From Clostridiales bacterium (lineage in GTDB: Bacteria; Bacillota; Clostridia; Peptostreptococcales; BM714): 18,821 bases of DNA. A program made the position numbers and the translations under genes. The notes beneath the pieces are model-generated. The model ran no database searches. It was given only the letters and a program-made list of their open reading frames with translations, and was not told the DNA's origin. Below, piece after piece: positions 8 through 18,436 of the stretch. The stretch spans positions 1-18,821 of the forward strand of contig PKTO01000274.1 of NCBI GenBank assembly GCA_002869095.1, given 5' to 3'. Positions within the stretch are counted from its first letter, which is position 1, and each line of letters begins with the position of its first letter.

Positions 8-16
8 TAAGAAGTT

Positions 17-844: not shown

Positions 845-898
845 TAAATCGGCAAGCATGAATAATCAAAGAAACAGCTGAAGGGAGGAACACCAAGA

Positions 899-1177
899 AT
901 GGGAAGATCTCTTAAAAAAGGACCTTTTATTGATCAGAAACTCCTCAGAAGAATTGAAGAGATGAATGATAAAAACGAAAAACGCGTAATCAAGACATGG
1001 TCGAGAGCTTCGACAATATTCCCGCAGATGATCGGACATACCATTGCGGTATACGACGGCAGGAAGCATGTGCCTGTCTATGTCACAGAAGACATGATTG
1101 GACACAAGCTTGGAGAGTTTGCACCTACTAGAACTTTCAGGGGCCACGCAGGGGACAGGAGCAGCAAAGTCAAGTAA
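899..1177 (+). CDS. rpsS: 30S ribosomal protein S19
   Basis: S19 (uS19) sits in the head of the small subunit, pairs with S13 and contacts the tRNA anticodon region. The 92-residue product has the typical start [10 protein letters not shown] and the basic C-terminal tail with [11 protein letters not shown]. The start is supported by AAGGGAGG at 881-888. It lies between rplB and rplV, as in nearly all bacterial S10 operons, and the next gene begins 33 bases later. Confidence 0.98.
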
Positions 1178-1210
1178 TATCAGTGAAAAGTATCGGAAGG
1201 AGGTATTGCT

Positions 1211-1546
1211 GTGGAAGCGAAAGCGATAGCTAAATACGTCAGAGTTTCATTTAGAAAAATTCAACCGATTGCCGCTATGGTGAGAGGGAAAAATGTAGAT
1301 GAAGCATTGGCGATACTGAAATACACGCCGAATAAAGGCGCAAGAGTATTTGAAAAGGTAATAAAATCAGCCAAAGCGAATGCTGAAAACAATCATGAAA
1401 TGGATGCCGAAAAACTCTATATCGCAGAGATATATGCGAATAAGGGACCGCACATGAAGAGGTGGAATGCTGGTTCCATGGGCAGGGCAAACCCGATTCT
1501 CAGAAGAACCAGTCATGTCGGTGTCGTATTGAAAGAGAAAGCGTAA
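1211..1546 (+). CDS. rplV: 50S ribosomal protein L22
   Basis: L22 (uL22) lines the nascent-peptide exit tunnel. The 111-residue product has the usual globular core and the conserved tunnel-hairpin tail ([13 protein letters not shown], near residues 89-101). Translation starts at a GTG at 1211, seven bases after a perfect AAGGAGG at 1197-1203; no in-frame ATG offers a better start. Its TAA overlaps the first base of the next SD site, so rpsC is probably translated by closely coupled ribosomes. Confidence 0.97.
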
Positions 1547-1560
1547 AGGAGGGGAAATTC

Positions 1561-2277
1561 ATGGGTCAAAAAGTTAGTCCGCACGGATTGAGAGTCGGAA
1601 TCATAAAAGATTGGGACTCTAAATGGTACGCAAACAAGAAAAATTTCGCCGACCTTTTAGTTGAAGACTATAAGATCAGGGAGTTTGTAAAAGAAAAACT
1701 GTATACATCCGGAGTTGCGAAAATTGCGATTGAAAGAAAAGCAAACAACAAAGTCAACATCAATATTTTCACATCCAAGCCTGGTATGGTTGTAGGAAGA
1801 GGCGGAGAGTTGATCGAAGTCTTGAAAAAGGATTTGGAAAAAATGACCGGAAAGACAGTGTATATCGATATTTCAGAAGTCGCCAGACCTGACAGAAACG
1901 CTCAGCTGGTAGCCGAAAGCGTTGCTTTTTCGCTTGAAAGAAGGGTTTCCTTCAGGAGGGCAATGAAGCAGGCCATGGGAAGAGCCATGAAATCGGGAGC
2001 TCAGGGAATAAAGATTATGGTTTCAGGACGTTTGGGCGGAGCCGAAATCGCCAGAACTGAAAACTACAGCCAAGGCAATGTGCCTCTTCAGACCTTGAGA
2101 GCCAACATCGAATACGGTTTTGCTGAAGCAAACACAACTTACGGTAAAATCGGCGTCAAGGTATGGATATACAAGGGCGAAATTCTTCAAGGAATGGCCC
2201 AAGATGAAGTGGTTGATAAAAACAGCAAAAGACCGCCTCGGAAAAAAACCAGAAGACCGAGGAAAAGCAATAATTAA
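1561..2277 (+). CDS. rpsC: 30S ribosomal protein S3
   Basis: S3 (uS3) forms part of the mRNA entry channel and its helicase activity. The product is 238 residues: an N-terminal segment ([14 protein letters not shown]), a KH type-2 domain with the loop [10 protein letters not shown] near residues 79-88, the S3 C-terminal domain with [11 protein letters not shown], and a very basic tail ([12 protein letters not shown]). The frame is open further upstream inside rplV, but the ATG at 1561 is chosen because AAGGAGG at 1546-1552 precedes it and MGQKVSP is the invariant family start. Confidence 0.98.
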
Positions 2278-2306
2278 GAGCAACAATTGGGAAGGAGGAA
2301 AGCATC

Positions 2307-2750
2307 ATGTTAATGCCTAAACGAGTCAAGCGCCGTAAAGTTTTTAGAGGCAGAATGAAAGGCAAAGCCAACAAAGGTAACGAGATTTCATATGGCGAAT
2401 ACGGTTTGATGGCCATGGAACCCGCATGGATAACTTCTAATCAGATAGAAGCGGCACGTATCGCAATGACGAGATACATGAAAAGGGGCGGAAAGGTTTG
2501 GATCAAGATTTTCCCCCACAAGCCTGTAACACAAAAGCCTGCTGAAACCCGAATGGGAGCCGGTAAAGGTTCTCCCGAATACTGGGTTGCGGTTGTAAAA
2601 CCGGGAAGAATAATGTTTGAATTATCAGGTGTCAGCGAAGAAGTCGCCAGAGAGGCTTTGAGATTGGCCGCGCACAAATTGCCCATCAGATGCAAATTTG
2701 TAAGCAGGGAAAGTGCGGTTGAAAAAGGTGGTGAAGCTAATGAAAACTAA
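2307..2750 (+). CDS. rplP: 50S ribosomal protein L16
   Basis: L16 (uL16) helps shape the A-site tRNA elbow-binding region of the large subunit. The 147-residue protein begins [11 protein letters not shown], typical for the family, and carries the conserved [27 protein letters not shown] region (residues 68-94), with the arginine and lysine loop that reaches toward the A site. AAGGAGGA just before 2300 supports the first ATG. Its last codons overlap the start of rpmC by 11 bases, a coupled arrangement common in this operon. Confidence 0.98.
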
Positions 2751-2934
2751 AAAATTGCGTGAAATGACATCGCAGGAATTAGACAATCAATTCAACGACT
2801 TGAAAAGCGAATTGTTTAATTTGAGATTTCAATTAGCCACTGGACAGTTGGATAATCCTGTGAAAATCAAGTATGTGAAAAAGGATATCGCAAGAGTAAA
2901 AACTATACAAAGGGAAAGAGAACTGAACGCATAG
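2740..2934 (+). CDS. rpmC: 50S ribosomal protein L29
   Basis: L29 (uL29) is a small helical-hairpin protein at the tunnel exit, next to the docking site for trigger factor and SRP. It is 64 residues, with the family features LREMTSQEL near the start and [13 protein letters not shown] in the middle. The frame is open from 2713, but the ATG at 2740 gives the usual MKTKKLREM start, with GGTGG eight bases before it. The start overlaps the end of rplP by 11 bases. Confidence 0.96.
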
Positions 2935-2959
2935 AAAACGAAGGAAGGAGGTCTGCATC

Positions 2960-3214
2960 ATGGAAAGAAACAGCAGAAAAGTAAGGGTTGGCAAAGTTGT
3001 AAGCGACAAGATGGACAAGACCATAGTTGTTGCGGTTGAAGATTTCGTCCGTCACCCACTTTATAAAAAAGCGGTAAAGAAGACCAACAAGTTCAAGGCT
3101 CATGACGAGAACAATGAGTGCAAGATTGGCGATAAAGTAAGAATAATGGAAACAAAGCCACTTAGCAAAGATAAAAGATGGAGACTCGAAAAAATCATAG
3201 AGGAAGCGAAATAG
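2960..3214 (+). CDS. rpsQ: 30S ribosomal protein S17
   Basis: S17 (uS17) is a primary 16S rRNA-binding protein with an OB fold. The 84-residue protein has the typical start [21 protein letters not shown], a region with the [11 protein letters not shown] motif, and the ending [19 protein letters not shown]. The start follows AAGGAGG at 2945-2951. In the classical E. coli layout this is the last S10-operon gene; here only 23 bases separate it from rplN, with no terminator or promoter visible, so the S10 and spc operons read as one. Confidence 0.97.
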
Positions 3215-3237
3215 ACTTTCCGAGAGGAGGGAAACCG

Positions 3238-3606
3238 ATGATACAACAAGAATCACGTTTGACCGTTGCAGATAACTCGGGAGCAAAAGAAGTTTTGTGC
3301 ATCCGCGTATTGGGTGGATCAGGCAGAAGATATGCCAGCATTGGCGATGTTATCGTATGTACTGTTAAAAGAGCAACACCAGGCGGCGTTGTCAAGAAAG
3401 GCGACGTTGTGAAAGCCGTCGTTGTAAGAACTAAAAAAGGTCTCAAGAGAAACGATGGAGTAAAGGTGAGGTTTGACGAGAATGCGGCAGTCATCATCAA
3501 GGATGACCAATCTCCCGTTGGAACCCGTATCTTTGGGCCTGTTGCAAGAGAATTGAGAGACAAAAACTATATGAAGATTGTCTCACTGGCTCCGGAAGTG
3601 CTTTAA
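3238..3606 (+). CDS. rplN: 50S ribosomal protein L14
   Basis: L14 (uL14) lies at the subunit interface, forms intersubunit bridges and contacts L19. The product is 122 residues, the exact family norm, starting [18 protein letters not shown] and ending with [22 protein letters not shown] longer frame opens at 3178 inside rpsQ but would add 20 unrelated residues; the ATG at 3238, after AGAGGAGG at 3223-3230, is clearly correct. Confidence 0.98.
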
Positions 3607-3623
3607 CCTAGGAGGTGAAAGGA

Positions 3624-3935
3624 ATGCATATCAAGAAAGATGACACTGTTGTTGTTATTTCAGGAAAAGACAAGGGTAAGCAAGGCAAGGTTTTGCAGGC
3701 TTTTCCCAAAACAGATAAAGTTATAGTAGAAGGTGTCAACATGGTGACAAAGCATCAAAAGCCTTCCGCAAAAGTTCAGCAAGGCGGAAGAATTCACCAG
3801 GAAGCGCCTATCCATGCTTCTAATGTAATGCTTTACGATGTTAAGGCAAAAGCTCCCACAAGAGTGGGCAGCAAGAAACTCGAAGATGGTAAAAAAGTAC
3901 GGATCTCAGTCAAAACTGGAGAAGTTATTGACTGA
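3624..3935 (+). CDS. rplX: 50S ribosomal protein L24
   Basis: L24 (uL24) is an early assembly initiator that binds 23S rRNA domain I and lies by the tunnel exit. The 103-residue product contains an N-terminal KOW motif ([18 protein letters not shown], residues 6-23) and the [17 protein letters not shown] segment. The GTG at 3615 is in frame but forms part of the SD site (GGAGGTG), so the ATG at 3624, seven bases past the SD, is the start. Confidence 0.97.
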
Positions 3936-3960
3936 TTGATGGTGAAAGGAGGTCGTAAAC

Positions 3961-4500
3961 ATGGCTAGATTGAAAGATAAATACAAGAATGAAACAACGA
4001 AAGCCTTGATGGAAAAGTTCAAATACAAAAATGTTATGGAAATTCCAAAACTTGAAAAAATTGTTGTGAACATGGGCGTCGGAGACGCAAAAGAAAATAC
4101 GAAAGTTTTGAATGTGGCAGCCGACGAATTGTCCATAATCACTGGACAGAAACCGGTCATAACGAAAGCGAAGAAATCCGTGGCCAACTTCAAATTGCGT
4201 GAAGGAATGCCTATTGGAACCAAAGTCGATCTCAGGGGAGAAATCATGTACGAGTTCTTTGACAGACTCGTAAACATAGCGCTTCCAAGGGTAAGAGACT
4301 TTAGAGGTCTTAAAACCAGTTCTTTTGACGGAAGAGGAAACTATTCCATGGGCGTCAAAGAACAACTTATTTTCCCGGAAATTGAGTATGACAAGGTTGA
4401 CAAGGTTCGCGGAATGGATATCGTTTTCGTAACGACAGCTCAAACGGATGAAGAAGCTTTTGAACTTCTCAAACTGATGGGCATGCCATTTAGCAACTAA
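3961..4500 (+). CDS. rplE: 50S ribosomal protein L5
   Basis: L5 (uL5) binds 5S rRNA with L18 and forms a bridge to S13 in the small-subunit head. Length is 179 residues, normal for Firmicutes. Family hallmarks are the early segment with [19 protein letters not shown], then [21 protein letters not shown], and the RDFRGL and [15 protein letters not shown] segments in the second half. The ATG follows AAAGGAGGT. The stop codon directly abuts the next SD site, implying tight coupling to S14. Confidence 0.98.
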
Positions 4501-4513
4501 AGGAGGCGAAAAA

Positions 4514-4699
4514 ATGGCGAAGAAATCTCTTAAAGTCAAGCAATCGAGAGAAGCGAAATACTCTACAAGAGAATATAATAGATGCAGAATATGCGGAAGA
4601 CCGCATGCTTATCTGAGAAAATTCGGTATATGTCGTATATGTTTTAGAGAATTGGCTTACAAAGGCCAAATACCGGGAGTCAAAAAGGCTAGCTGGTAA
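4514..4699 (+). CDS. rpsN: 30S ribosomal protein S14, zinc-binding type (type Z)
   Basis: S14 (uS14; this form is also called rpsZ) sits in the small-subunit head near the A and P sites. The short 61-residue form with four cysteines (C24, C27, C40, C43; CxxC-12-CxxC) is the zinc-ribbon type usual in Firmicutes, as opposed to the roughly 100-residue zinc-free form. AGGAGG at 4501-4506 comes immediately after the rplE stop. A zinc-independent paralogue, if any, is not in this window. Confidence 0.98.
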
Positions 4700-4721
4700 G
4701 AAGGAAGGGAGGTAGAAACAC

Positions 4722-5120
4722 ATGGCAATGACTGATCCTATCGCTGATATGCTTACTAGAATAAGAAACGCAAATTCAGCAAATCATAAAACTGTAGACA
4801 TACCTTCTTCTAACATGAAGAAAACCATTGCGGGAATTCTTTTAAATGAAGGATATGTTAGAGGCTACAATGTCATCGAGGACGGAAAACAGGGCGTGCT
4901 CAGAGTTCAACTCAAGTATGGTCCGAACAAGGAAAAAGTCATCACCGGTATCAAACGCATTTCAAAGCCGGGACTTAGAGTATATACAAAAGGCGAAGAA
5001 ATGCCGAGAGTGCTTGGTGGATTGGGAATAGCGATCATTTCTACATCTAAAGGCATCGTAACGGACAAGGATGCAAGGAAAATGGGTGTAGGCGGCGAAG
5101 TGATCTGCTACGTTTGGTAG
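4722..5120 (+). CDS. rpsH: 30S ribosomal protein S8
   Basis: S8 (uS8) is a central-domain 16S rRNA binder. The 132-residue product starts [18 protein letters not shown] and has the conserved C-terminal segment ([15 protein letters not shown] then GGEVICYVW) that contacts helix 21. AAGGGAGG upstream supports the ATG at 4722. In E. coli S8 is the translational repressor of the spc operon through a site near rplE. I saw no convincing copy of that hairpin at the rplE start here, though this was checked only by eye. Confidence 0.98.
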
Positions 5121-5149
5121 CATGAATTCATAGTATTGGAGGTGTAAGT

Positions 5150-5689
5150 ATGTCTAGAATCGGCAAAATGCCTATAGAATTGCCTGATGGTGTCGAAATC
5201 AAAGTGGCAAAGAACAATCTTGTCACAGTAAAAGGACCCATGGGTGAATTGAGTGAAAAAATCAGCGAAAAAATGAAAATTGCAATAGAAGGAAATGTGT
5301 TGACGGTAGACAGACCAAACGACACAAAAATCAACCGCTCGCTTCACGGCCTCAGCCGAACTTTGATAAACAATATGGTTGTCGGAGTTACAAAGGGCTA
5401 CGAAAAGAAGTTGAAAATTATTGGTGTTGGATATCGTGTCGCCAAGAAAGGCAATGCGTTGGATTTCAACCTTGGATTCTCGCATCCTTTGGAGATGCCG
5501 GATCCTGAAGGAATAACAACTGAAGTTCCCAACCAGACGGAAATCGTCGTAAAGGGAATCAGCAAGCAGCTTGTGGGCAACTACGCTGCCATCATCAGAG
5601 GACTCAGGCCTCCGGAACCCTACAAGGGCAAAGGCATAAGATACGAGAACGAGCAAGTTAGGCGCAAAGAAGGAAAAGCAGGTAAGTAG
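5150..5689 (+). CDS. rplF: 50S ribosomal protein L6
   Basis: L6 (uL6) lies near the factor-binding site and the sarcin-ricin loop. The 179-residue protein has the expected two related domains: the start [39 protein letters not shown] in the centre, and the C-terminal signature [13 protein letters not shown] near residues 151-163. The ATG follows TTGGAGGTG. Next gene rplR begins 17 bases after the stop. Confidence 0.98.
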
Positions 5690-5706
5690 AAAGGGAGTGA
5701 CTACGA

Positions 5707-6075
5707 ATGATTAAAAAATTAAGCAAGAATGAAAAAAGAAAAAAGCGTCATCTTCGCATGAGAAATAAAATCGTCGGTACTCCTGAAATGCCTCGCTTGA
5801 ATGTATTCAGAAGCTCCAAGAACATTTATGCTCAAATCATTGACGATGCAGAAGGAGTCACACTCGTGGCGGCCTCGTCTCTTGAAAAGGATGCTTCGGA
5901 AAAAATAGCGAATGGTGGAAACAAGGACGCCGCAAGAGAAGTTGGTAAAATGGTCGCTAAAAAGGCTTTGGAAAAAGGCATCGAAAACGTTGTTTTCGAC
6001 AGAGGCGGATACATTTACCACGGCCGTGTCAAGGAATTGGCTGAAGGAGCAAGAGAAGCCGGACTTAAATTTTAG
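5707..6075 (+). CDS. rplR: 50S ribosomal protein L18
   Basis: L18 (uL18) carries 5S rRNA into the large subunit together with L5. The 122-residue product has the basic N-terminus ([16 protein letters not shown]), the [19 protein letters not shown] segment and the ending with [28 protein letters not shown], all hallmark sequences. AAGGGAG at 5691-5697 supports the ATG. No oddities. Confidence 0.98.
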
Positions 6076-6092
6076 GCAAAGGAGGTTAGGTT

Positions 6093-6599
6093 ATGCTCGG
6101 AGAAAAATTTGATGCAAGCAAGCTCGAGTTGAAAGAGCAGGTTATAAACATAAATCGTGTAACAAAAGTTGTTAAAGGCGGACGTAATTTCAGATTCAGC
6201 GCCCTTGTGGTTGTTGGAGACGAGAATGGCCATGTCGGAATAGGAACAGGAAAAGCGCTTGAAGTTCCGGAAGCAATAAGAAAGGCAATACAGGCGGCTA
6301 CAAAAAATGTCGTATCCGTTCCAAGAGTTGGAACAACCATCCCTCATCAAAACAGGGGAAGGTTTGGAGCAGGCAAGGTTCTTATCATGCCGGCCAAGGA
6401 AGGTACCGGAGTAATCGCCGGAGGACCTGTACGTGCAGTCTTGGAATTGGCAGGAATCAAGGATGTAAGGGCAAAATCCCTGGGAAGCAATAACCCGCAA
6501 AACATGGTTAACGCTACAATGCAGGGATTGATGAGCATGAAAACTGTTGAAAAAGTCGCAAAACTCAGAGGAAAATCTGTTGAGGAAATTAAAGGTTAG
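6093..6599 (+). CDS. rpsE: 30S ribosomal protein S5
   Basis: S5 (uS5) works with S4 and S3 at the mRNA entry site and affects decoding accuracy. The 168-residue protein has the double-stranded RNA-binding-like N-terminal domain ([27 protein letters not shown]) followed by the [15 protein letters not shown] segment and the C-terminal domain ([18 protein letters not shown], then [18 protein letters not shown]). AAAGGAGG at 6078-6085 supports the ATG. Its TAG overlaps the SD of rpmD. Confidence 0.98.
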
Positions 6600-6610
6600 G
6601 GGGGAAAACC

Positions 6611-6793
6611 TTGGCTAATATGTTGAAGATTAAACTTGTAAAAAGTACGATCGCATCAAAGCCCAACCATCGAAAGAATGTTGAGGCTTTGGGACTCAGA
6701 AAAATAGGTCAAGTCGTTGAAAAAGAGGATAATCCTCAAATGCGCGGCATGATCAGAAAAGTTGAACATCTACTGGAAGTTGAAGAAATATAA
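6611..6793 (+). CDS. rpmD: 50S ribosomal protein L30
   Basis: L30 (uL30) is a small protein near the 5S rRNA side of the large subunit. The product is 60 residues and matches the family in [24 protein letters not shown] and in [19 protein letters not shown]. The start is inferred as TTG at 6611, six bases after AGGGGGG at 6598-6604. An in-frame ATG at 6620 would lie 15 bases from the SD and is less likely. The gene is tucked between rpsE and rplO as usual. Confidence 0.95.
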
Positions 6794-6811
6794 GTTGGAG
6801 GAGGTGTAGCC

Positions 6812-7252
6812 ATGAAACTTCATGAGTTGAAACCTGCAAAAGGTGCAGTCAGGAATAGAAAACGACTCGGCAGAGGTACTGCCAGCGGGCAGGGAGAAAC
6901 TGCCGGAAGAGGTGCCGATGGGCAAAACTCAAGATCGGGCGGAGGTACAAGACCCGGTTTCGAGGGGGGCCAAATGCCTCTTTACAGAAGAATTCCCAAA
7001 AGGGGATTCACCAATCCTTTCAAGAAGGTTTGGTCTATAGTGAATGTTGAAGATTTGAACAGATTTGAGGAAGACACAGAAATCACGCCGGCAATCCTTA
7101 TGGAAAACGGTTTGATCAAGAAATTGAACTATGGCGTAAAGATTCTTGGAAATGGTGAAATTGAAAAGAAGCTGACAGTCAAAGCCAATCAATTCACAAA
7201 GTCTGCTCAAGAAAAAATTGAAGCGGCCGGCGGAAAGGCAGAGGTGATTTAA
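6812..7252 (+). CDS. rplO: 50S ribosomal protein L15
   Basis: L15 (uL15) is a large-subunit assembly protein with a long, glycine- and arginine-rich N-terminal extension threading into rRNA. The 146-residue sequence starts [22 protein letters not shown], with the family signature [20 protein letters not shown] near residues 48-67, and a globular C-terminal half. GGAGGAGG precedes the ATG. The stop TAA is followed with no gap by the secY start, so secY translation is almost surely coupled. Confidence 0.98.
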
Positions 7253-8527
7253 TTGCTTCGTACCTTAAGGAATGCCTGGAAGATTCCGGATCTAAAAAAG
7301 AGAATCTTGTTTACGCTGATGATGTTTGCCATTTTCAGATTGGGGACATCCATCCCGGTGCCTGGAATTGACAGAGAAATATTGAATCAATTTTTTGCGT
7401 CGGACGGAGGACTCCTTAATTTCTTTAACTTCATGTCGGGTGGAGCTTTCAAGAATTTCACCATTTTCGCATTGAGTATAACACCATACATCACGTCGTC
7501 AATCATAATGCAGCTTCTGACTATTGCCATTCCTAAGCTTGAAGCATTGGCCAAGGAAGGGGAAGAAGGCAGAAAGAAGATTGCTCAATTCACACGTTAT
7601 GGAACAGTCGTATTGGCTGTGATCCAGGCGACTGGAATCAGCATAGGACTCTTTAGAAGAGCTCTTATATCAACTGATTTCTGGGCTGTGGCGACTGTTA
7701 TAATAACACTTACAGCCGGAACCGCTTTCCTTATGTGGCTCGGTGAGCAAATAACTGAAAACGGAATAGGGAATGGAATATCGCTTATCATTTTTGCGGG
7801 AATAATTTCAAGGGTTCCTCTTGGAATCAGCCAAACCTTCCAAAAGGTTTCCGCAGGTGAAATGTCGGTCTTGCCATTGCTGATTTTCGCAGTGCTTGCT
7901 CTGTTCGTTATAGCAGGCGTAATCGCAATCCAACAGGGAACAAGGAAAATTCCGGTTCAGTATGCAAAACGCGTTGTAGGCAGAAAAATGTACGGCGGAC
8001 AAAGCACTCATATACCGCTTAAAGTGAATCAGGCAGGGGTTATCCCGGTAATATTCGCAATTTCACTGCTGCAGTTTCCAATGACGCTGACATATTTCTT
8101 CCCGGATGGAGGATTTGCCAATTTTGTTGCAAAATACCTTTCGCCTACAGGAAGCCCCGGAATATATTTCTACAATCTGTTGTATGCGCTTCTGATAATA
8201 TTTTTCACATACTTCTACACGGCTATTACATTCAACCCTGTTGAAGTGGCAGACAACATGAAGAAAAACGGCGGATTCATACCGGGCATAAGACCTGGAA
8301 AGAAAACTGCTGAATATTTACAAAAATCATTAAACAAAATAACCTTGGCAGGAGCATTTTTCCTGGCGATGATAGCCGTTTTGCCCACACTGATTCTGAA
8401 TTTCACAAGCATAGATTTCAGATTTGGAGGGACAGCGCTTTTGATTGCGGTAGGGGTTTCTCTCGAGACCATGAAACAAATCGAAGCACAGATGGTTATG
8501 AGGCATTACCAAGGTTTTCTTAAATAA
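7253..8527 (+). CDS. secY: Preprotein translocase subunit SecY
   Basis: SecY is the pore-forming membrane subunit of the Sec channel, which moves unfolded proteins across or into the membrane with SecA and SecE. The 424-residue length and about ten hydrophobic segments fit. Recognisable parts are LGTSIPVPGID in the first loop/plug region, GGAFKNFTIFALSITPYITSSI, the GNGISLIIFAGI segment, and the cytoplasmic loop with RPGKKTAEYL. Translation starts at a TTG directly abutting the rplO stop (TAATTG); GAGGTG at 7241-7246 inside rplO serves as SD. Its usual partner adk follows after 21 bases. Confidence 0.98.
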   Translation: MLRTLRNAWKIPDLKKRILFTLMMFAIFRLGTSIPVPGIDREILNQFFASDGGLLNFFNFMSGGAFKNFTIFALSITPYITSSIIMQLLTIAIPKLEALAKEGEEGRKKIAQFTRYGTVVLAVIQATGISIGLFRRALISTDFWAVATVIITLTAGTAFLMWLGEQITENGIGNGISLIIFAGIISRVPLGISQTFQKVSAGEMSVLPLLIFAVLALFVIAGVIAIQQGTRKIPVQYAKRVVGRKMYGGQSTHIPLKVNQAGVIPVIFAISLLQFPMTLTYFFPDGGFANFVAKYLSPTGSPGIYFYNLLYALLIIFFTYFYTAITFNPVEVADNMKKNGGFIPGIRPGKKTAEYLQKSLNKITLAGAFFLAMIAVLPTLILNFTSIDFRFGGTALLIAVGVSLETMKQIEAQMVMRHYQGFLK

Positions 8528-8548
8528 TATCGTATTGGAGGGGTTAAT

Positions 8549-9199
8549 ATGAGATTGATACTTTTAGGACCTCCTGGGGCCGGAAAAGGAACTCAGGCAG
8601 TCGGTATCGTCAAGGCTTTCGGTATCCCCCATATTTCTACAGGAGATATCTTCAGAAAAAACCTTAAGGAAGGTACGGAACTTGGCACAAGAGCAAAAAG
8701 CTTTATGGACAAGGGCCTTCTTGTACCGGACCAGCTGGTAGTTGAAATAGTTGAAGACAGACTTAAAGAAAAAGATTGCGAAAAAGGATTTCTGCTTGAC
8801 GGATTTCCAAGGACACTCAACCAGGCCAAGGAGCTTGATGATGTTCTGGCAAAAATGAATGTCGCTATGGACAATGTAGTCAATATTGAAGTTGACAAGA
8901 GCATATTGGTTGGAAGGGCTGTCGGCAGAAGAATTTGCCGGGGCTGCGGAGCAACTTACCATGTCGAATTCAATCCTCCCGCAAAAGAAGAGGTTTGCGA
9001 CCTTTGCGGCGGATAATTGTATCAAAGAAGCGACGACAACGAAGAGACTGTATCAAAACGCATACAGGTGTATCTTGAGCAGACTCAGCCTTTGATTGAA
9101 TATTATTCAAAAAAAGGCATATTGATTGACATAGATGGAAAGCAGGACATTGAAAAAGTGACTGCCGATATCGAAAATGCATTAAAAGGCAAAGAGTGA
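8549..9199 (+). pseudogene. adk: Adenylate kinase, interrupted by one in-frame TAA stop
   Basis: Adenylate kinase converts ATP + AMP to 2 ADP in the cytoplasm. The first 155 codons carry the P-loop (GPPGAGKGT, residues 8-16), the AMP-binding TGDIFR, the DGFPRT segment with R88, R123/R127, and a zinc lid with C130, C133, C150 and C153. A TAA at 9014-9016 then interrupts the frame where relatives have Glu in the GGELYQR stretch. The same frame resumes for 60 conserved codons (LYQRSDDNEETVSKR, TQPLIEYYSKKG) to a TGA at 9197-9199. Joined length is 216 residues, the family norm. The 155-residue fragment lacks R160 and R171, equivalents of catalytic arginines in E. coli (R156, R167), so it is probably inactive. 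One base change (TAA to GAA) restores the gene. The upstream SD (TTGGAGGGG) and the TGATG overlap with map are intact. Gene identity is certain; whether the stop is real is not. Confidence 0.9.
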
Positions 9200-9945
9200 T
9201 GGTCACAATCAAGACAAAGCAAGAAATTGAATACATGAAAGAAGCCGGGAAAATTGTCGCTGAAGTCCATAAACTTATGGCAGAGGTCATAAAGCCCGGC
9301 ATGACAACAATGGAGCTTGACCAGATAGCTGAAAAGAAAATCATCGAGATGGGAGCAATCCCGGCATTCAAGGGCTATGGAGGATTTCCGGCTGCCATAT
9401 GCGCTTCCGTGAACGAACAGGTTGTTCATGGAATCCCGGATGGAAGGGTTCTTGAAAACGGTGATATAATAAGCGTCGATGTCGGTTCGAAGTTAAAAGG
9501 ATATTATGGTGACGGGGCAAGAACTTTCCCTGTCGGTGAAATAAGCGAAGAGGCCGAACGGCTTATAGCTGTGACGCGTCAAAGTTTTTTCGAAGGTTTG
9601 AAGTATTGCAAGGTGGGATACAGACTTTCCGACGTATCGCATGCGGTACAAAAATATGTCGAGGAAAATGGTTTTTCCGTAGTGAGGGATTATGTGGGCC
9701 ATGGAATTGGCACTGCCTTGCATGAGGATCCACAGGTTCCAAATTACGGTCCTCCCGGAAAAGGTCCGAGACTTGTTGCCGGGATGGTTATTGCAATAGA
9801 GCCCATGGTAAATGCAGGAACTTTCAGGGTGCAGACCCTCGGAGACGAATGGACGGTTGTAACGGCTGACGGAAAGTTGTCGGCTCATTACGAGAATACC
9901 ATAGCCATAACCGAGGAAGAACCGATTATACTGACTCAACTGTAA
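9199..9945 (+). CDS. map: Methionine aminopeptidase, type I
   Basis: This cytoplasmic metalloenzyme removes the initiator methionine from new proteins with a small second residue. The 248-residue product shows all expected active-site residues: H77 (VHGIP), metal ligands D94 (VDVG), D105 (GDGART), H168 (GHGIG), E201 (IEPM) and E232 (HYENT), plus H175. No zinc-finger N-terminal extension is present, so it is the plain type Ia form. The ATG at 9199 overlaps the adk TGA as TGATG; a GTG at 9196 is in frame but less likely. If translation is coupled to adk, the internal adk stop could lower Map output. Confidence 0.97.
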   Translation: MVTIKTKQEIEYMKEAGKIVAEVHKLMAEVIKPGMTTMELDQIAEKKIIEMGAIPAFKGYGGFPAAICASVNEQVVHGIPDGRVLENGDIISVDVGSKLKGYYGDGARTFPVGEISEEAERLIAVTRQSFFEGLKYCKVGYRLSDVSHAVQKYVEENGFSVVRDYVGHGIGTALHEDPQVPNYGPPGKGPRLVAGMVIAIEPMVNAGTFRVQTLGDEWTVVTADGKLSAHYENTIAITEEEPIILTQL

Positions 9946-9959
9946 AAGAGGTGTCTGAA

Positions 9960-10250
9960 TTGCTGGATACGAAAGAATTGACGATAGGGCAATTTGTAAG
10001 ATCAAAGGCCGGTAGAGACAAAGGAAGGGTTTTCATAATTGTAGATGTGATCGATGATCAATATGTTTTAGTCGCCGACGGCGACCTGAGGAGAATAGGC
10101 AACCCGAAGAAAAAGAAAGTGAAACATCTTGCCAAGTTCAATCTTATAAGTGAATTGATAGTAAGAAGAAACAATCAAAATCTCACTGTAACGAATTTGA
10201 TGCTCAGAACAGAAATCGACAAACTGGAAACCGACCGGCCCATGGAATAG
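9960..10250 (+). CDS. KOW-domain RNA-binding protein (L14e/L6e/L27e-like)
   Basis: A small basic protein of 96 residues with an N-terminal KOW-type fold: IGQFVRSKAGRDKGRVFIIV then YVLVADGDLRRIGNPKKKKVKHL. It resembles the KOW proteins found between map and infA in many Clostridia; their exact function is unknown, and ribosome or rRNA binding is only inferred from the fold and context. The C-terminal part (residues 60-96) is less conserved. Start: the GTG at 9951 is in frame but is part of the SD (GAGGTG), so the TTG at 9960, six bases after the SD, is preferred. infA follows 15 bases after the stop. Confidence 0.85.
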   Translation: MLDTKELTIGQFVRSKAGRDKGRVFIIVDVIDDQYVLVADGDLRRIGNPKKKKVKHLAKFNLISELIVRRNNQNLTVTNLMLRTEIDKLETDRPME

Positions 10251-10265
10251 GAGGAATGCTTCCTA

Positions 10266-10628
<363 letters not shown>

Positions 10629-10645
10629 TTGAGTGAAAGTAATTG

Positions 10646-10683
10646 TCAATTCAAATAAAAGCGCGGCTGCACTAATGAATTGA
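10646..10683 (+). promoter_or_regulatory. Hairpin in the rpmJ-rpsM intergenic region (candidate S4 leader element)
   Basis: TCAATTCA (10646-10653) and TGAATTGA (10676-10683) are perfect complements around a 22-base loop that includes GCGCGGCTGC. Together with the stem ending at 10628 it makes the 110-base gap before rpsM structured, in an operon otherwise packed with gaps of 10-50 bases. Because rpsD (S4) is in this operon, autoregulation by S4 here is plausible by analogy with the E. coli alpha operon. It has not been matched to a known RNA family. Confidence 0.4.
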
Positions 10684-10724
10684 AAACAACAACAAACGGA
10701 TTTAAACAGGAGGTGTACGGTTTA

Positions 10725-11093
10725 ATGGCGAGAATCGCAGGTGTTGACTTACCAAGAGACAAGAGAGTCGAAATCGGCTTGACTTATATTTTCGGCATAG
10801 GAAGATCAAGTTCCTTGGAAATTCTTGAAAAGGCTGGAATCAATAAAGATACCAGAGTCAAGGATTTGACAGAAGAGGAAGTCAGCAAGCTAAGGCAAAT
10901 CATCGTAGACGAGCATCAAGTCGAAGGAGATTTAAGACGAGAAGTTTCCTTGAACATCAAGAGACTCAAGGAAATCGGCTGTTATAGAGGAATACGTCAT
11001 AGAAGAGGTCTTCCGGTAAGAGGGCAAAAGACCAAGACCAACGCAAGAACGAGAAAAGGTCCAAAGAGAATGGTAGGACGCAAAAAGAAATAG
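10725..11093 (+). CDS. rpsM: 30S ribosomal protein S13
   Basis: S13 (uS13) sits in the small-subunit head, contacting P-site tRNA and bridging to L5. The 122-residue product has the start [21 protein letters not shown], the helix-hairpin-helix-like region IFGIGRSSS, and the basic tail [20 protein letters not shown]. The frame is open from 10680, but the ATG at 10725 follows CAGGAGGTG and gives the family N-terminus. It is the first alpha-operon gene and lies after an unusually long 110-base gap. Confidence 0.98.
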
Positions 11094-11112
11094 CAAAGGA
11101 GGGTTTTGAAAC

Positions 11113-11508
11113 ATGGCGAAGAAAGTCCGCAAGACACGTAGAAAGAAACGTGAGAAAAAGCATATAGAACGTGGACAGGCACATATTCAGTCTACATTCA
11201 ACAATACAATCGTGACACTCAGTGACATGTCCGGCAATGTTATTGCATGGGCAAGCGCCGGAGGACTCGGATTCAAGGGTTCCAGAAAATCCACTCCTTA
11301 TGCAGCGCAAATGACGGCTGAACAAGCCGCAAAAGATGCTATGGAGCATGGTCTGAAACATGTTGAAGTATATGTAAAGGGTCCGGGAGCAGGAAGAGAA
11401 GCTGCAATCAGATCGTTGCAAGCTACAGGGTTGGAAATCAGTTCAATCAAAGATGTTACACCGGTACCGCATAATGGTTGCAGACCGCCCAAACGAAGAA
11501 GAGTTTAA
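11113..11508 (+). CDS. rpsK: 30S ribosomal protein S11
   Basis: S11 (uS11) lies on the platform near the Shine-Dalgarno helix and the E site. The 131-residue protein has a basic N-terminus ([16 protein letters not shown]), the core [21 protein letters not shown], and the conserved ending [27 protein letters not shown] precedes the ATG. It lies 19 bases after rpsM. No oddities. Confidence 0.98.
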
Positions 11509-11532
11509 GTTAGATTAGGAGGTGAACGTATA

Positions 11533-12156
11533 ATGGCAAGATACACAGGACCGTCATGCAGACTTTGCCGAAGAGAAGGGCAGAAACTTTTTCTCAAAGG
11601 CGAGAGATGCTATACTGATAAATGTGCTATGAACAGACGCGCAAAAGCGCCTGGACAACATGGCGAAGGAAGAAGAAGCAAGCCTTCCAACTATGGGATT
11701 CAATTAAGAGAAAAGCAGAAGGTCAAAAGGTATTATGGACTTTTGGAAAACCAATTCAAGAGACACTTCGACAAGGCGGAAAAGCAATCCGGCATCACGG
11801 GTGAAAATTTCCTGAGGATACTCGAAACCAGATTGGACAATGCCGTATTCAGAATGGGAATGGCATCTTCAAGAAAAGAAGCCCGCCAACTCGTTACTCA
11901 CGGACATTTTACAATCAATGGCAATAAAGCTACAATCCCTTCAATGGTAGTTGAAGTTGGAGACACTATAGCTGTCAAGGACAAAAGCAAATCTTCCGCA
12001 AAATTCAAGGCGATAGCAGAAAAATCGGTTAATATTCCGAGCTGGCTTTCAGTTGACCCTGAAAAGATGGAAGGCAAGGTCGTAGCGTTACCCGTTAGAG
12101 AAGATATCGATATACCGATTGAAGAACATTTGATCGTAGAATTGTATTCCAAGTAA
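11533..12156 (+). CDS. rpsD: 30S ribosomal protein S4, zinc-binding type
   Basis: S4 (uS4) is a primary 16S rRNA assembly protein and, in both E. coli and Bacillus, an autogenous repressor of its own mRNA. The 207-residue product starts [16 protein letters not shown] and keeps four cysteines (C9, C12, C26, C31) that form the zinc site of the C+ type. An S4 RNA-binding domain ([20 protein letters not shown], then [15 protein letters not shown]) occupies the second half. AGGAGGTGA supports the ATG. Its position between rpsK and rpoA is as in E. coli and many Clostridia, unlike Bacillus. Confidence 0.98.
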
Positions 12157-12208
12157 TTAGAATCCGGTAACCCTCGAAATGACAATATGCTAAGAGGGAG
12201 GGCATAGA

Positions 12209-13159
12209 ATGATAGAAATTGAAAAACCGAGAATTGAATGTGTCGAAATGTCTGATGAAGGCACGTATGGAAAAATTGTTGTGGAACCGCTCGAAAGAGG
12301 CTACGGAATAACCATAGGAAACAGTCTTAGAAGAATTCTCCTTTCGTCTTTGCCTGGAGTTGCTGTCAAGTGGATTAAAATTGACGGCGTACTGCATGAA
12401 TTTTCAACAGTTGCAGGAGTAAGCGAGGATGTTGTCGATATCATACTCAACCTTAAAGAATTGTCCGCAAAGATTCATTCCGATGAATCGGTAAAGGAAG
12501 TAAGAATTGAGAAGAAGGGCCCAGGAATAATAACGGCTGGAGACATCGTCGCTGATGCCGACGTCGAAATTCTAAATCCCGACATGTATATCGCAACCAT
12601 TGACGAAGATGCGGAAATGAACATGGTGTTGGGAATTTCCAGAGGAAGAGGCTATGTATCGGCAGAAGGCAACAAAGACGAGGAAATGCCGATTGGCGTA
12701 ATTCCGGTGGACTCGATCTATACTCCTGTAAAGAAAGTCAACTACAAGGTTGAAGATACAAGGGTTGGGCATGTTACCGATTTCGACAAATTGACTCTCG
12801 AAGTATGGACGGACGGCAGCATTAGCCCGGACGAAGCAGTTTCATTGGGTTCAAAGATAATGAATGAACATTTGAATCTTTTCATTTGCTTGACGGAGAG
12901 TATCAGCGATGTTGAAATAATGGTGGAAAAAGAAGAAGACAAGAAGGAAAAAGTGCTTGAGATGACTATTGAAGAACTTGATCTTTCAGTTCGTTCCTAC
13001 AACTGCTTGAAGCGTGCAGGCATCAATACAGTTGAGGATCTCATACAGAAAACCGAGGATGACATGATGAAAGTAAGAAATCTTGGCAAGAAATCCTTGG
13101 AGGAAGTCAGAGAAAAACTGATTGAATTGGAACTGGTACTCAAGCAAGATGATGAATAG
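12209..13159 (+). CDS. rpoA: DNA-directed RNA polymerase subunit alpha
   Basis: The alpha subunit dimerises to start core polymerase assembly and contacts UP elements and activators. The 316-residue protein has the N-terminal assembly domain (residues about 1-230; [20 protein letters not shown] near 31-50), an acidic linker (KEEDKKEK), and a C-terminal domain with [12 protein letters not shown] and [11 protein letters not shown]262 matches the DNA-contacting E. coli R265. GAGGGAGGG supports the ATG. The 52-base gap after rpsD contains only a weak CCCTC/GAGGG repeat. Confidence 0.98.
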
Positions 13160-13182
13160 ACTTCAATAAAGGAGGGATCTTT

Positions 13183-13524
13183 ATGGCTGGATACAGAAGG
13201 CTGGGTCGTACGACCGACCACAGGAATCTCATGCTTAGAAATATCGTGACAAGCCTGATAAAGAACGGTCGTATCGAGACAACCGAGGCAAAAGCCAAGG
13301 AAGCCAGAAAAATAGCGGAAAAAATGATTACGCTGGCCAAAAGAGGCGACTTGCATGCAAGACGCCAGGCTATCGCTTATATGCTTGATGAAACCGTTGT
13401 CAAGAACATGTTTGATGAAATCGCACCTAAATACAGCGAAAGAAACGGCGGTTACACAAGAATAATTAAAATTGGACAAAGAAGAGGAGACGCTTCACCC
13501 ATGGTTCTTTTGGAACTGGTATAG
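13183..13524 (+). CDS. rplQ: 50S ribosomal protein L17
   Basis: L17 (bL17) lies at the tunnel exit region of the large subunit. The 113-residue product starts [20 protein letters not shown] and has [19 protein letters not shown] and the closing [14 protein letters not shown], all standard. AAAGGAGGG precedes the ATG. It is the last gene before the alpha-operon terminator 17 bases downstream. Confidence 0.98.
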
Positions 13525-13541
13525 TCGTCTGATGAGAAACC

Positions 13542-13571
13542 AAGGGGTTAAGTCATACTTAATCCCTTTTT
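13542..13571 (+). terminator. Intrinsic terminator after rplQ
   Basis: Arms AAGGGGTTAAGT (13542-13553) and ACTTAATCCCTT (13557-13568) form a 12-bp stem with one G-U pair and a 3-base loop, followed by a T run at 13567-13571. This closes the long ribosomal transcript. Confidence 0.9.
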
Positions 13572-13631
13572 CATTATTATTGGAAAAATTGATTATCCTA
13601 TGGAATCGGATTGAGATAGAGGCAGAAACAT

Positions 13632-14468
13632 ATGAAAAATATAATTGAAGTAAAAAAAGCTTCATATAAATATGTAACAGAAGAAGAGGAATTCCTGGCG
13701 GTCGACAATGTGGAATTTGTAGTCGGCCGCGGTGAATTCGTTGTTGTGATAGGCCACAACGGTTCAGGAAAATCCACATTGGCAAAAATGCTCAATGCAA
13801 TACTTGTTCCATGCGATGGTCAAGTGCTGATCAATGGTATGGACACAAAAGACGAAAATAATCTTTGGGAAATAAGGCGAAGCGCCGGAATGGTTTTCCA
13901 AAATCCAGATAATCAGATAGTAGCAACGATTGTAGAGGAAGATGTGGCTTTTGGCCCCGAAAATCTGGGTGTAGAACCGGAAGAAATAAGACGCAGGGTC
14001 GACAGGGCAATAGGCGTTGTAGGAATGAGCGAGTATAAAAGGAAACCGCCGCACCTTTTGTCCGGGGGACAGAAGCAAAGGATAGCGATTGCAGGAATTT
14101 TGGCAATGAAGCCTGAATGCATAATACTTGATGAACCCACAGCAATGCTTGACCCTTCCGGCAGGAAGGAAGTCATTGAAACAATAACCGGACTCAACAA
14201 AAGCGAAGGAATAACCATAATACATATAACCCATTTCATGGAAGAAGCGGTTCACGCCGACAGGGTTATAGTAATGGACGATGGAAAAATTATTCTTCAG
14301 GGAACGCCTAAAGAGGTGTTTTCACAATCGGAAACAATATTGGGATGCGGACTTTCCCTGCCTCAAGTGACTCTCTTGGCAAATTCTCTTAAAAAAGAAG
14401 GTCTTCCCGTTAGGGAAGGCGTATTGACTATGGAAGAAATGGTGGAAGAACTATGTCGATTATTGTAA
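13632..14468 (+). CDS. ecfA1: ECF transporter ATPase EcfA1
   Basis: One of two ATPases in the energising module of energy-coupling-factor transporters, which import vitamins and transition metals using interchangeable S components. The 278-residue protein has Walker [10 protein letters not shown] (41-49), the Q-loop Q90 in VFQNPDNQ, the signature LSGGQKQR (143-150), Walker B CIILDE (163-168) and switch H201. The weak SD (GAGG near 13620) and 107-base upstream gap suggest lower expression than the ribosomal genes. The end overlaps ecfA2 by 16 bases. No clear promoter is visible between the terminator and this gene. Confidence 0.95.
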
Positions 14469-15316
14469 AAGACTTGACGCACATATACAATCCCAAAAGT
14501 CCATTTGAAACCATTGCCCTCAAAAACATCTGTTTTGAAATAGAGGCAGGTGAATTCACTGGATTGATAGGACATACCGGTTCGGGCAAATCGACCCTGA
14601 TACAGCATCTCAACGGCTTGCTTAAAGCCGAGTCCGGAACAATACTGATTAACGGACTTGACATCACAGGCAAGGAAGTTAAAATGAATGACGTCAGAAA
14701 GAAAGTGGGTCTTGTGTTCCAATACCCCGAGTACCAGCTCTTTGAAGAGACCGTCGAGAAGGATGTGGCTTTCGGGCCCGGCAACCTTGGCCTTTCCGAA
14801 AAGGAAATCCACGAAAGGGCAAGGGAGGCAATTGAAACGGTGGGGCTGGATTACGAAGAAATAAAGGACAGGTCGCCTTTTGAATTGAGCGGCGGACAGC
14901 GCAGGAGGGTCGCAATCGCAGGCATAATAGCGATGAAACCCGAAGTGCTGATTTTGGACGAGCCGACGGCAGGCCTAGATCCAAGGGGAAGAAGAGAGAT
15001 ACTTGAGAAAATAAGCCTGCTCCACAAGAAGTACAACACGACGGTTCTCCTGATATCGCACAGCATGGAGGACATAGCCAGGCTTTGCGGCAAAGTGCTT
15101 GTGATAAACAAGGGCCAGATAGCTTTTTCAGGCACACCGAAAGAAGTTTTTTCGCAAGTCGATGCGCTGGAAAGCATAGGATTGGGGGTTCCCCAGATGA
15201 CGGCCTTGATGGACAAATTGAGCCGGCATCGTCAAGACGTGAAAAAGGGGGCCTTGACCGTGGAAGAGGCCAAAGAGGAGCTTTTAAGATTGGCGAGGGG
15301 CGGTAGCAATGCTTAG
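14453..15316 (+). CDS. ecfA2: ECF transporter ATPase EcfA2
   Basis: The second ATPase of the ECF energising module, which pairs with EcfA1 as a heterodimer on EcfT. The 287-residue product has Walker [10 protein letters not shown] (40-48), Q90 in [16 protein letters not shown] (145-152), Walker B VLILDE (165-170) and H203. The ATG at 14453 lies inside the end of ecfA1, and the gene overlaps ecfT by 8 bases, so the three are translationally coupled. It uses more G/C-ending codons and AGG arginine codons than the ribosomal genes, consistent with ordinary rather than high expression. Confidence 0.95.
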
Positions 15317-16106
15317 AGACATTACAATAGGGCAATACTATCCCGTTGAATCATTGATTCATCGAAGGGATCCGAGACTCAAGATATTGGCGGTTTTCGG
15401 ATTCGTAATAGTGCTGTTTATGATAGATTCACTGACGAACTACGTCTATGCGGCGGGTTTCATCGGTTTGATCATAGCCGCTTCAAAAGTCCCATTGAAA
15501 TATATACTCAAAGGCCTTAAGCCAATATTTCTGATCATATTCTTCACGTTTACGATCAACATGTTTTTGACCCGTGGAGAGATTATTTATAAAATGGGAA
15601 TTTTTGAAATAACCAGGGAAGGCCTGCATCAGGCGGTTTTTATGAGCCTGAGGCTCATTTTTCTTATTATTGGAACATCCATTTTGACATTGACGACTTC
15701 TCCAATAGAACTAACAGACGGGATAGAGAGGCTTCTGAATCCATTCAGAAGAATAGGCGTGCCCGCGCATGAGTTGGCTATGATGATGACAATAGCCTTA
15801 AGATTCATACCGACAATTCTGGAGGAGACAGACAAGATAATGAAGGCTCAAATGGCCAGGGGAGCGGACTTTGAAAGCGGAAACATAGTAAAAAGGGCAA
15901 AAAGCCTTATACCGTTGCTTGTGCCTCTTTTTATCGGGGCATTCAGGCGTGCTGATGATTTGGCAACTGCCATGGAGGCAAGATGCTACAGGGGAGGAAA
16001 GAGCAGAACCCGCATGAAACAGCTTAAGTTCAACAAAGGCGACTTCGCCGGGTCGATTTTGATGGTTTTGTTTTACGGTTATCTTGTTTTTTTGAGGATT
16101 GCATAG
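15309..16106 (+). CDS. ecfT: ECF transporter transmembrane component EcfT
   Basis: The membrane scaffold of the ECF transporter that couples the two ATPases to S components. The 265-residue product has several hydrophobic segments (from [19 protein letters not shown] residues near 30 to a final segment near 245-260) and the two ARG-type coupling motifs, in [10 protein letters not shown] and in [10 protein letters not shown], that dock onto the ATPases. The ATG overlaps ecfA2 by 8 bases. The S component is not encoded here, as is usual for group II ECF systems with a shared module. Confidence 0.93.
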
Positions 16107-16145
16107 GCATTGATTTTTTTATTTTAAATGGAAAGAGGTAATATT

Positions 16146-16670
16146 GTGGAAACCTTGATATTGAAAGGCCTGTATATTTTCGCGGCTCGAGTCATAATTG
16201 CATCGCTGGTATCGGTGAGAACAATTCTGATGACTAAAAACAGGAAATTTTTGTCGTCCCTGATAGCGTTTTTCGAATCGCTCCTGTTCATAGTAGTATT
16301 GGGCACGGTAATGAACGACCTTGACAACATATGGTTCGTAGGGGCTTACGCCATTGGATTTTCAGTTGGCAATTATGCCGGCATAATGATAGAGGAAAAA
16401 ATGGCTATAGGGGAGTTGGTCCTTAGAATAATTGTAGACAAAAACGAAGACAAGCTGGTGGAGGAGCTCAGAAACAATGGCTTCGGCGTTACCGTAATCA
16501 AAGGCGAGGGCAGGGACGGCGACAGGTACCTTCTCTTCATAAGCATAAAGCGCAGGGATATGGAAAAAATTTATGAAATCATCGATAAAAACAGGGTCAG
16601 CAGCTTTATTTGCACCAGTGACGGAAGGACCAACAAAGGCGGAGTGTTCAGAGGAAAGACTAGACATTGA
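16146..16670 (+). CDS. UPF0316 family membrane protein (DUF5698/DUF2179)
   Basis: A 174-residue protein of unknown function resembling B. subtilis YebE-type UPF0316 proteins. Three hydrophobic segments fill the N-terminal half (YIFAARVIIASLVSVRTIL, FFESLLFIVVLGTVM, and FVGAYAIGFSVGNYAGIMIEEK). A soluble DUF2179-like domain follows (ELRNNGFGVTVIKGEGRDG) and the tail keeps the KGG motif seen in the family. GTG at 16146, eight bases after AAAGAGG, is preferred over the upstream ATG at 16128, which lacks an SD. It sits between ecfT and truA, with truA starting 14 bases past its stop. Confidence 0.82.
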   Translation: METLILKGLYIFAARVIIASLVSVRTILMTKNRKFLSSLIAFFESLLFIVVLGTVMNDLDNIWFVGAYAIGFSVGNYAGIMIEEKMAIGELVLRIIVDKNEDKLVEELRNNGFGVTVIKGEGRDGDRYLLFISIKRRDMEKIYEIIDKNRVSSFICTSDGRTNKGGVFRGKTRH

Positions 16671-16684
16671 CAGCAGGTGAAACA

Positions 16685-17425
16685 GTGAAAAACATAAAAC
16701 TTACCATAGAATATGACGGGACGGATTTTTGCGGTTGGCAGAAACAGATTGGGCTGAGAACTGTGGAAGGAGTTCTAAACGAGACACTGACCAAGGTTTT
16801 GAATGAGGAAGTGGAGGTCATAGGTTCGGGAAGAACCGACTCGAAGGTCCACGCTTTAGGACAGGTTGCGAATTTCAAATCTGATACGCCCATATCACTC
16901 GACAGATTTCCCAGGGCTGTGAACTCATACCTTCCGCCGGATGTGGCAATTATTTCAGCCGAGGAAGTGCCAATGGATTTTCATGCAAGATACGACCCGA
17001 AAAGAAAAACATACCTGTACAAGGTACAAAACGGAAGCGTTTGCAGACCTGTCTATAGAAATTACGCATATCATTATTACCGCAGACTGGATGAGGAGAA
17101 AATGCGCCAAGCGCTTGGAATGTTTGTAGGCGAGCATGACTTCAAAGCCTTCATGTCGTCGGGATCGCCCATAAAAAAGACCGTAAGGACAATTTACAAG
17201 GCTGAAATTTCCCGGGAAAAGGATCTCTTTGTCATTGAAGTTGAAGGAAACGGTTTTCTTTACAACATGGTGAGAAGGATTGTCGGAGTCGTCCTGGAAG
17301 TGGGAAGCGGAAGACTTGACGCAGGAGAAATTCCGGAGATACTCAAAGAAAAGGAAAATTGCCGGACCAGGCGTTTGGCGCCCCCGCAGGGCCTGTATCT
17401 TAAAAATGTGGAATATGAGGTTTAG
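16685..17425 (+). CDS. truA: tRNA pseudouridine(38-40) synthase TruA
   Basis: TruA converts uridines 38-40 of the tRNA anticodon arm to pseudouridine. The 246-residue protein begins MKNIKLTIEYDGTDFCGWQ and carries the catalytic D52 in GSGRTDSKVHALGQ; the SK in place of the more common AG after TD is a variant also seen in some clostridial TruA proteins. The FLYNMVRRIVG motif appears near the C-terminus. GTG at 16685, five bases after AGGTG, is preferred to an in-frame TTG at 16667 that overlaps the previous stop. Confidence 0.95.
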   Translation: MKNIKLTIEYDGTDFCGWQKQIGLRTVEGVLNETLTKVLNEEVEVIGSGRTDSKVHALGQVANFKSDTPISLDRFPRAVNSYLPPDVAIISAEEVPMDFHARYDPKRKTYLYKVQNGSVCRPVYRNYAYHYYRRLDEEKMRQALGMFVGEHDFKAFMSSGSPIKKTVRTIYKAEISREKDLFVIEVEGNGFLYNMVRRIVGVVLEVGSGRLDAGEIPEILKEKENCRTRRLAPPQGLYLKNVEYEV

Positions 17426-17437
17426 GACTTGTTTGGC

Positions 17438-17466
17438 TTGACACAGCCGGGTCGGTGTATTATAAT
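17438..17466 (+). promoter_or_regulatory. Consensus sigma-A promoter for rplM-rpsI
   Basis: TTGACA (17438-17443) and TATAAT (17461-17466) both match the consensus exactly, with the ideal 17-base spacer. The start of transcription is expected near 17473, giving a leader of about 107 bases before rplM. Confidence 0.93.
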
Positions 17467-17472
17467 GTCAAG

Positions 17473-17579
17473 AGTGTGAAAAGCGAAATATTCAAGCAGA
17501 CCCAATGCCCCGGGTTTTGAAGTTTCTCTTTTTTAATAGAATAATCATATGAAGAAGATTCATATTGGGAGGTAAAGTC
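17473..17579 (+). ncRNA. Probable L13 (rplM) autoregulatory leader
   Basis: The 5' leader between the promoter and rplM is structured. TTCA-AGC-AGACCC (17491-17503) pairs with GGGTTT-TGAA (17512-17521) around AATGCCCC, with a three-base bulge; a perfect ATATGAA/TTCATAT hairpin (17547-17565) sits just before the SD GGGAGG; AAGAG/CTCTT (17470-17474, 17526-17530) could close the first domain. Leaders upstream of rplM-rpsI in Firmicutes are a known family (L13 leader), thought to bind L13. I infer membership from position and structure; I could not compare it with the family model. Confidence 0.6.
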
Positions 17580-18014: not shown

Positions 18015-18031
18015 TGGAGGAGGATGGTTAA

Positions 18032-18424: not shown

Positions 18425-18436
18425 GTATTGCCATTC

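Follow-up and report, generated by a model that had tools for sequence, protein, structure and literature searches.

An in-frame TAA in the adenylate kinase gene of a Clostridiales draft genome: probably a single-base consensus error

The gene for adenylate kinase (adk) is normally essential, and the question raised by the copy described here is whether the in-frame TAA that interrupts it exists in the organism or in the assembly alone. The window, by which is meant the whole stretch of 18,821 nucleotides that was analyzed, is contig C92 of a draft genome (G000) that comprises 1.93 Mb in 370 contigs, is 90.9% complete and was probably assembled from a metagenome; the TAA is located mid-contig. 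Reading of the open reading frames together with Pfam searches revealed that positions 8549-9016 encode 155 amino acids of the N-terminal part of adenylate kinase (PF00406 and PF05191) and end with the TAA, that 60 further codons in the same frame (9017-9196) match PF00406 positions 121-150, and that this frame ends with a TGA at 9197-9199, which shares one base with the ATG of map at 9199. All of this agrees with a previous sequence-only reading of the same DNA. The Cys4 zinc-lid motif (C130 to C153) is whole and lies directly 5' of the TAA (Table 1).

Table 1. Features of the adk locus and other lone in-frame stops detected in the same draft genome
Feature	Position	Strand	Evidence or remark
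adk codons 1-155: core, AMP-binding part, zinc lid	8549..9013	+	PF00406 positions 1-122, PF05191 positions 1-29; 89.7% identity to sister genome G001
Zinc-lid Cys4 stretch, C130-x2-C133 ... C150-x2-C153	8936..9007	+	Sequence read directly; PF05191
In-frame TAA, adk codon 156	9014..9016	+	GAA (Glu) in sister genome G001
adk codons 157-216 and stop TGA, first codon TTG	9017..9199	+	PF00406 positions 121-150; weak ribosome-binding energy at TTG
map, intact	9199..9945	+	1-base overlap with adk stop
secY, intact, upstream neighbor of adk	7253..8527	+	
Other lone in-frame stops of G000	L157:1562, L162:4223, L188:8486, L230:12550, L237:187, L238:815 and 9190, L249:678		recD2, rubrerythrin, flhA, permease, AlaDh/PNT-type, probably Ppx/GppA, mfd, AAA ATPase

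The gene resembles bacterial adenylate kinases in its sequence, in its zinc Cys4 lid (PF00406 and PF05191) and in its location in the spc operon, where secY and map flank it, and its PF00406 core and PF05191 lid share one frame, which identifies it as a long zinc-lid adenylate kinase. It differs from them in the TAA after the lid, which was present in none of the relatives among the matches listed. As assembled, the frame is broken at codon 156 and does not run on through the C-terminal arginines located 3' of the TAA, which we take to be catalytic. With the two halves of the family sharing one frame and parted by one stop, the site is a nonsense substitution on any reading, and chance is not at issue.

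The sequence-only reading had proposed that a single G-to-T change at 9014 turned GAA into TAA, and that adk of the closest genomes should be compared at this codon. In this comparison, 132 aligned loci could be scored at codon 156, three of them being the window itself; among the 129 others (some perhaps from the same or a near species), Glu was present in 69 and a stop in none. The sister genome G001, which is the single same-genus genome found and is 86% identical over positions 1-18470 of the window, has an uninterrupted adk with GAA at codon 156, and the proposed substitution fits this codon. Among the 60 genomes searched as relatives, 55 (G000 included) matched adk above the cut-off, and an internal stop occurred in G000 only. 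A search of the phylum gave matches above the cut-off in 393 of 398 genomes, and the stop was again restricted to G000 among the matches listed. Among named sequences, the closest adk (74% identity over residues 1-155) came from 'MAG: Clostridiaceae bacterium isolate T1Sed10_77m', in a search that may have left out the record of the window and those closely related to it, and the 42-base stretch around the stop had no match in viral contigs. When adk was compared between G000 and G001, 40 synonymous and 16 nonsynonymous differences were observed in the 155 codons before the stop, and 18 synonymous and 7 nonsynonymous differences in 58 codons after it (87.9% identity). Such similar constraint on either side of the TAA implies that the stop is either very recent or not real, and the substitution pattern makes an old loss of adk appear unlikely.

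In G000, PF00406 and PF05191 each gave one match, both of them the window adk, and a second adk was not found, although this absence is not strict because the draft is 90.9% complete. Tolerance of the stop through a second adenylate kinase, which had been suggested previously, is not borne out by either Pfam family in this draft. Considering the intact codon in relatives, the failure to find a second adk, the similar constraint on both halves and the other isolated stops of the assembly described below, the TAA probably reflects one wrong consensus base in a fragmented assembly. A miscall of G as T at 9014 would have turned GAA into TAA, and the adk of the organism would be intact, most likely encoding an ordinary adenylate kinase (AMP + ATP -> 2 ADP); we infer that the stop at 9014 is absent from the cells. 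The sequence-only reading had also ranked an error as the simplest explanation, ahead of a tolerated mutation and of recoding, and this order is supported by the intact relatives and by the isolated in-frame stops elsewhere in the assembly. Substitution errors in draft genomes can yield isolated false stops, and no literature that directly treats such stops was found.

The background of stray stops was examined by comparing 81 pieces of G000, a sample of 473 kb out of 1.93 Mb, with 61 pieces of G001 (1.16 Mb), which gave 153 alignments of G001 with G000 covering 43,407 amino acids. Under a filter that accepts a lone stop when it lies at least 25 columns into the alignment and both flanks are conserved, in-frame stops were detected in four G000 genes, i.e., adk, flhA (FHIPEP), a gene with an AlaDh/PNT N-terminal domain and rubrerythrin (families taken from the G001 copies). 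No frameshift-split gene of G000 was found under this filter in the 153 alignments, the frameshift test detecting only pieces of 80 amino acids or more. The remaining G000 hits of the alignment scan were three stops in L269, where the stretch preceding a gene matches poorly, and a looser filter also picked up stops close to the ends of alignments, as well as alignments that were split, in the tRNA region of L152 and in a pair in L236. In addition, scanning for coding potential and searching the pieces separately with Pfam revealed that an NCS2-type permease is broken in G000 (PF00860 positions 2-67, then 69-149), as is recD2, in which all four relatives that were read have Glu at the affected codon; stops probably also break mfd, a Ppx/GppA gene and a gene for an AAA ATPase.

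Together with adk, these approximately eight other lone stops make nine sites in 473 kb, chosen partly by eye out of a longer list that also held L164:101 (at a contig end), L238:3820, L257:10665, L159:2648, L235:2787, L240:4285 and L257:4788, the TGA sites in L232 and L241, and rows resembling ordinary gene ends, all of which were left out of the nine. Four of the nine sites are located less than 300 bp from a contig end, zones that make up 10.3% of the sampled bases. Based on the eight other sites in the remaining 454 kb, about 0.3 stops would be expected per stretch as long as the window, and one stop in it is therefore no great surprise. A scan of coding potential gave 27.5 interruptions per Mb in G000 versus 13.8 in G001, a rough measure that lumps broken genes together with gene ends and probable selenocysteine TGAs, and its start-plus-SD filter drops two of the counted sites (those in the AlaDh/PNT-type gene and the permease). 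An initial interruption scan was dominated by antisense and out-of-frame shadow ORFs, and the alignment scans described above were used instead.

In the reverse comparison (149 alignments, 42,695 residues), ten stops were found in G001 within six query frames, four of which merely shadowed a frame whose conservation was clearly better (89-94% identity); the frame in L235 was the shadow of a slightly better one (79% vs 73%), and the pair L268 and L227 may reflect a frame change on the G001 side. G001 also contains at least one broken gene, found by eye and presumably phosphotransbutyrylase-like. The lone stops of G000, which are not accompanied by frameshifts according to the test used, lie in some cases at contig ends and are spread over housekeeping and other genes, in all of which they resemble false stops caused by substitution errors; the difference is that the contig of the window bears no other sign of error.

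An otherwise clean contig counts against a plain error. The sequence-only reading had stated that every other gene in the window is intact, which holds for the 33 genes compared with the G001 locus (L111), none of which has an internal stop; this comparison extended neither to rpmJ nor to the part of the window beyond rpsI. Private residues were also counted in 11 window genes including adk (1,782 columns), and G000 had eight (the stop included) versus 17 in G001, so private residues, which in excess might have betrayed errors, are not unusually frequent around adk. The TAA is the sole radical residue private to G000 in these 11 genes.

The broken codons themselves carry some information on the type of change involved. 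Four of the five broken G000 codons that could be read in G001 are Glu, more than the 20% expected under uniform substitution (P about 0.006); this excess also counts against a plain error, and it hints at G-to-T changes. At codon positions 1 and 2 in 146 alignments, 644 G-to-T/C-to-A differences were counted in G000 relative to G001 versus 536 in the reverse direction, and there was no clear excess of radical missense changes of this class. An oxidative G-to-T/C-to-A error signature across the whole draft was considered and rejected, much of the excess being Arg-Arg, Leu-Met and Ala-Glu and not radical. The excess may accordingly represent ordinary composition drift, and oxidized DNA, a mutator or drift could each yield it. 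The same 146 alignments also showed that the compared codons of G000 are richer in G+C than those of G001, and that certain shifts in G000 run mostly one way, such as Ala to Glu (16 vs 3) and the Arg-Arg class of G-to-T/C-to-A changes (51 vs 28).

A different explanation takes the TAA at face value, as a real and very recent nonsense mutation that leaves a truncated, inactive Adk devoid of the part after the lid, with either a polyphosphate kinase of the PPK2 family recycling AMP or the lineage being a minority or a dying one. This is rather unlikely, although the sequence does show the TAA, the rest of the contig is clean and G000 does encode a two-domain PPK2 of predicted class II. The PPK2 gene lies on contig C130, and the best solved relative of its product is PA3455 of P. 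aeruginosa (3czp, E 4.8e-125, residues 1-489). The product belongs to the PPK2 fold family, contains Walker A motifs and has a Gly after the Walker B motif of its C-terminal domain, and a Gly after Walker B of the active domain is described as the class II signature (PMC8776046). Class II enzymes convert AMP to ADP; according to the same source, PA3455 is one of them and acts on AMP and GMP, and weak adenylate kinase activity has been reported for it. The G000 protein thus appears, from its two fused PPK2 domains and the C-terminal Walker B glycine, similar to class II polyphosphate:AMP phosphotransferases such as PA3455; as a possible bypass only, it differs in that its gene is located outside the adk locus and is present in the adk-intact sister too.

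G001 has the same PPK2 and an intact adk, so this enzyme is no recent replacement and does not explain a loss. A two-domain PPK2 was detected in six of the 60 genomes including G000, and all five others have an uninterrupted adk match. In the E. coli experiments described in one report, growth stops when adk is repressed (PMC6393671). Tolerance of a real nonsense mutation through the tandem class II PPK2 is possible but unsupported, and nothing usable was found in the literature on a bypass of adk. The stronger proposal, that adk is truly dead and that PPK2 with polyphosphate, perhaps helped by a weak adenylate kinase activity of its own, carries the recycling of AMP to ADP, is quite improbable. 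In both genomes the PPK2 gene is located upstream of two genes that resemble guaB and guaA (L151:8032-12831 in G000, L286:353-5219 in G001), and this neighborhood suggests a role in purine nucleotide metabolism.

A precedent for life without adk was sought in seven genomes that had no full adk match (G022, G029, G030, G048, G057, G231 and G076; G100, G319 and G343, which likewise gave no full match in the phylum search, were outside this test). Only G076, a distant member of the same phylum whose genome is 82% complete, offers a candidate case that would favor a real mutation: PF00406 gave no match there, and a gap of only 16 bases, without adk, separates secY from map (L292). The adk of G076 may have moved, may lie in the missing part of the draft, or may have been truly lost, and the second of these counts against its use as a precedent. 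The other six genomes had no secY match either and prove nothing about adk loss, because the ribosomal-protein region is apparently absent from them; this region seems to be absent despite the high completeness stated for some of these genomes.

It is also conceivable that full-length Adk is produced because a suppressor tRNA, or readthrough specific to this site, places an amino acid (perhaps Glu) at the TAA. The frame after the stop is still constrained and Glu predominates at the readable broken codons, as noted above, and the suppressor might be missing from the draft, which contains 16 tRNA genes only. However, no UUA or CUA anticodon is present among these 16, a number smaller than a genome needs, and the stop is not conserved in any of the other loci read at codon 156. 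Two genes of the RF-1 family are encoded in G000 (frames of 344 and 360 amino acids), and the same is true of G001. TAA ends 16 of the 33 other window genes, and the G001 counterparts of these 16 end with TAA in 15 cases and with TAG in one. Moreover, the four in-frame stops that emerged from the alignments with G001 include two TAGs, and in one case the residue replaced is Tyr. In view of the TAA gene ends and the two RF-1 family genes, genome-wide recoding of TAA is rejected, and real recoding, one of the options raised from the sequence alone, fails the tests that could be made; readthrough in any form is accordingly given very little credence.

Some in-frame TGAs in these genomes may be of another nature. 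In both genomes, a small gene has a TGA at the same place ('MEGFG*GGP..GIALDKQK'; L241:4475 in G000, L193:12929 in G001), and this gene looks to us like that of a HesB-like selenoprotein, the shared TGA suggesting that the genus probably uses selenocysteine. In G001, a further TGA is located at L226:3420 in a gene that presumably corresponds to glycine reductase protein A (GrdA), a known selenoprotein, and this GrdA-like gene points to Stickland-type fermentation. At L232:10204 in G000, a TGA replaces the first Cys of the heavy-metal-associated CxxC motif of a P-type ATPase, which is either a stray stop or selenocysteine.

The codon directly after the TAA raises one more alternative, in which translation terminates at the TAA and restarts at the adjacent TTG to give an enzyme of two chains, as at the join of rplO and secY. 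At that join (7250-7255), the rplO stop adjoins the TTG start of secY, with a strong ribosome-binding match within rplO, and the sequence TAATTG is the same at both sites. At TTG 9017 the 16S duplex has an energy of -5.0, a strength equaled or exceeded by 32 of 104 internal TTGs, and the value for secY is -17.0; on the other hand, among the 34 annotated starts there are three whose energies do not surpass that of TTG 9017, namely those of map (which is coupled to the adk stop), of a KOW-type gene and of the gene at 16128, which indicates that a strong ribosome-binding site is not required here. Regarding the protein, one study describes an engineered two-fragment adenylate kinase of Thermotoga neapolitana that sustains growth of E. 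coli, whereas in the experiments it describes complementation failed with fragments of the enzyme from the mesophile B. subtilis (PMC6313779). The weak energy alone is insufficient to exclude a split enzyme; the TTG is not conserved, being CTG in G001, and for this reason reinitiation at TTG 9017 is unsupported and a split Adk must be regarded as extremely improbable.

If the stop were real, this would be a bacterium that lives without adenylate kinase or reads through a stop codon, and the question of how its adenylate balance is maintained would be reopened. If, as is most likely, it is a consensus error, the locus is a caution: when a draft genome is fragmented, a lone stop in one of its housekeeping genes should be weighed, before it is taken as biology, against the stray-stop background of that assembly itself.
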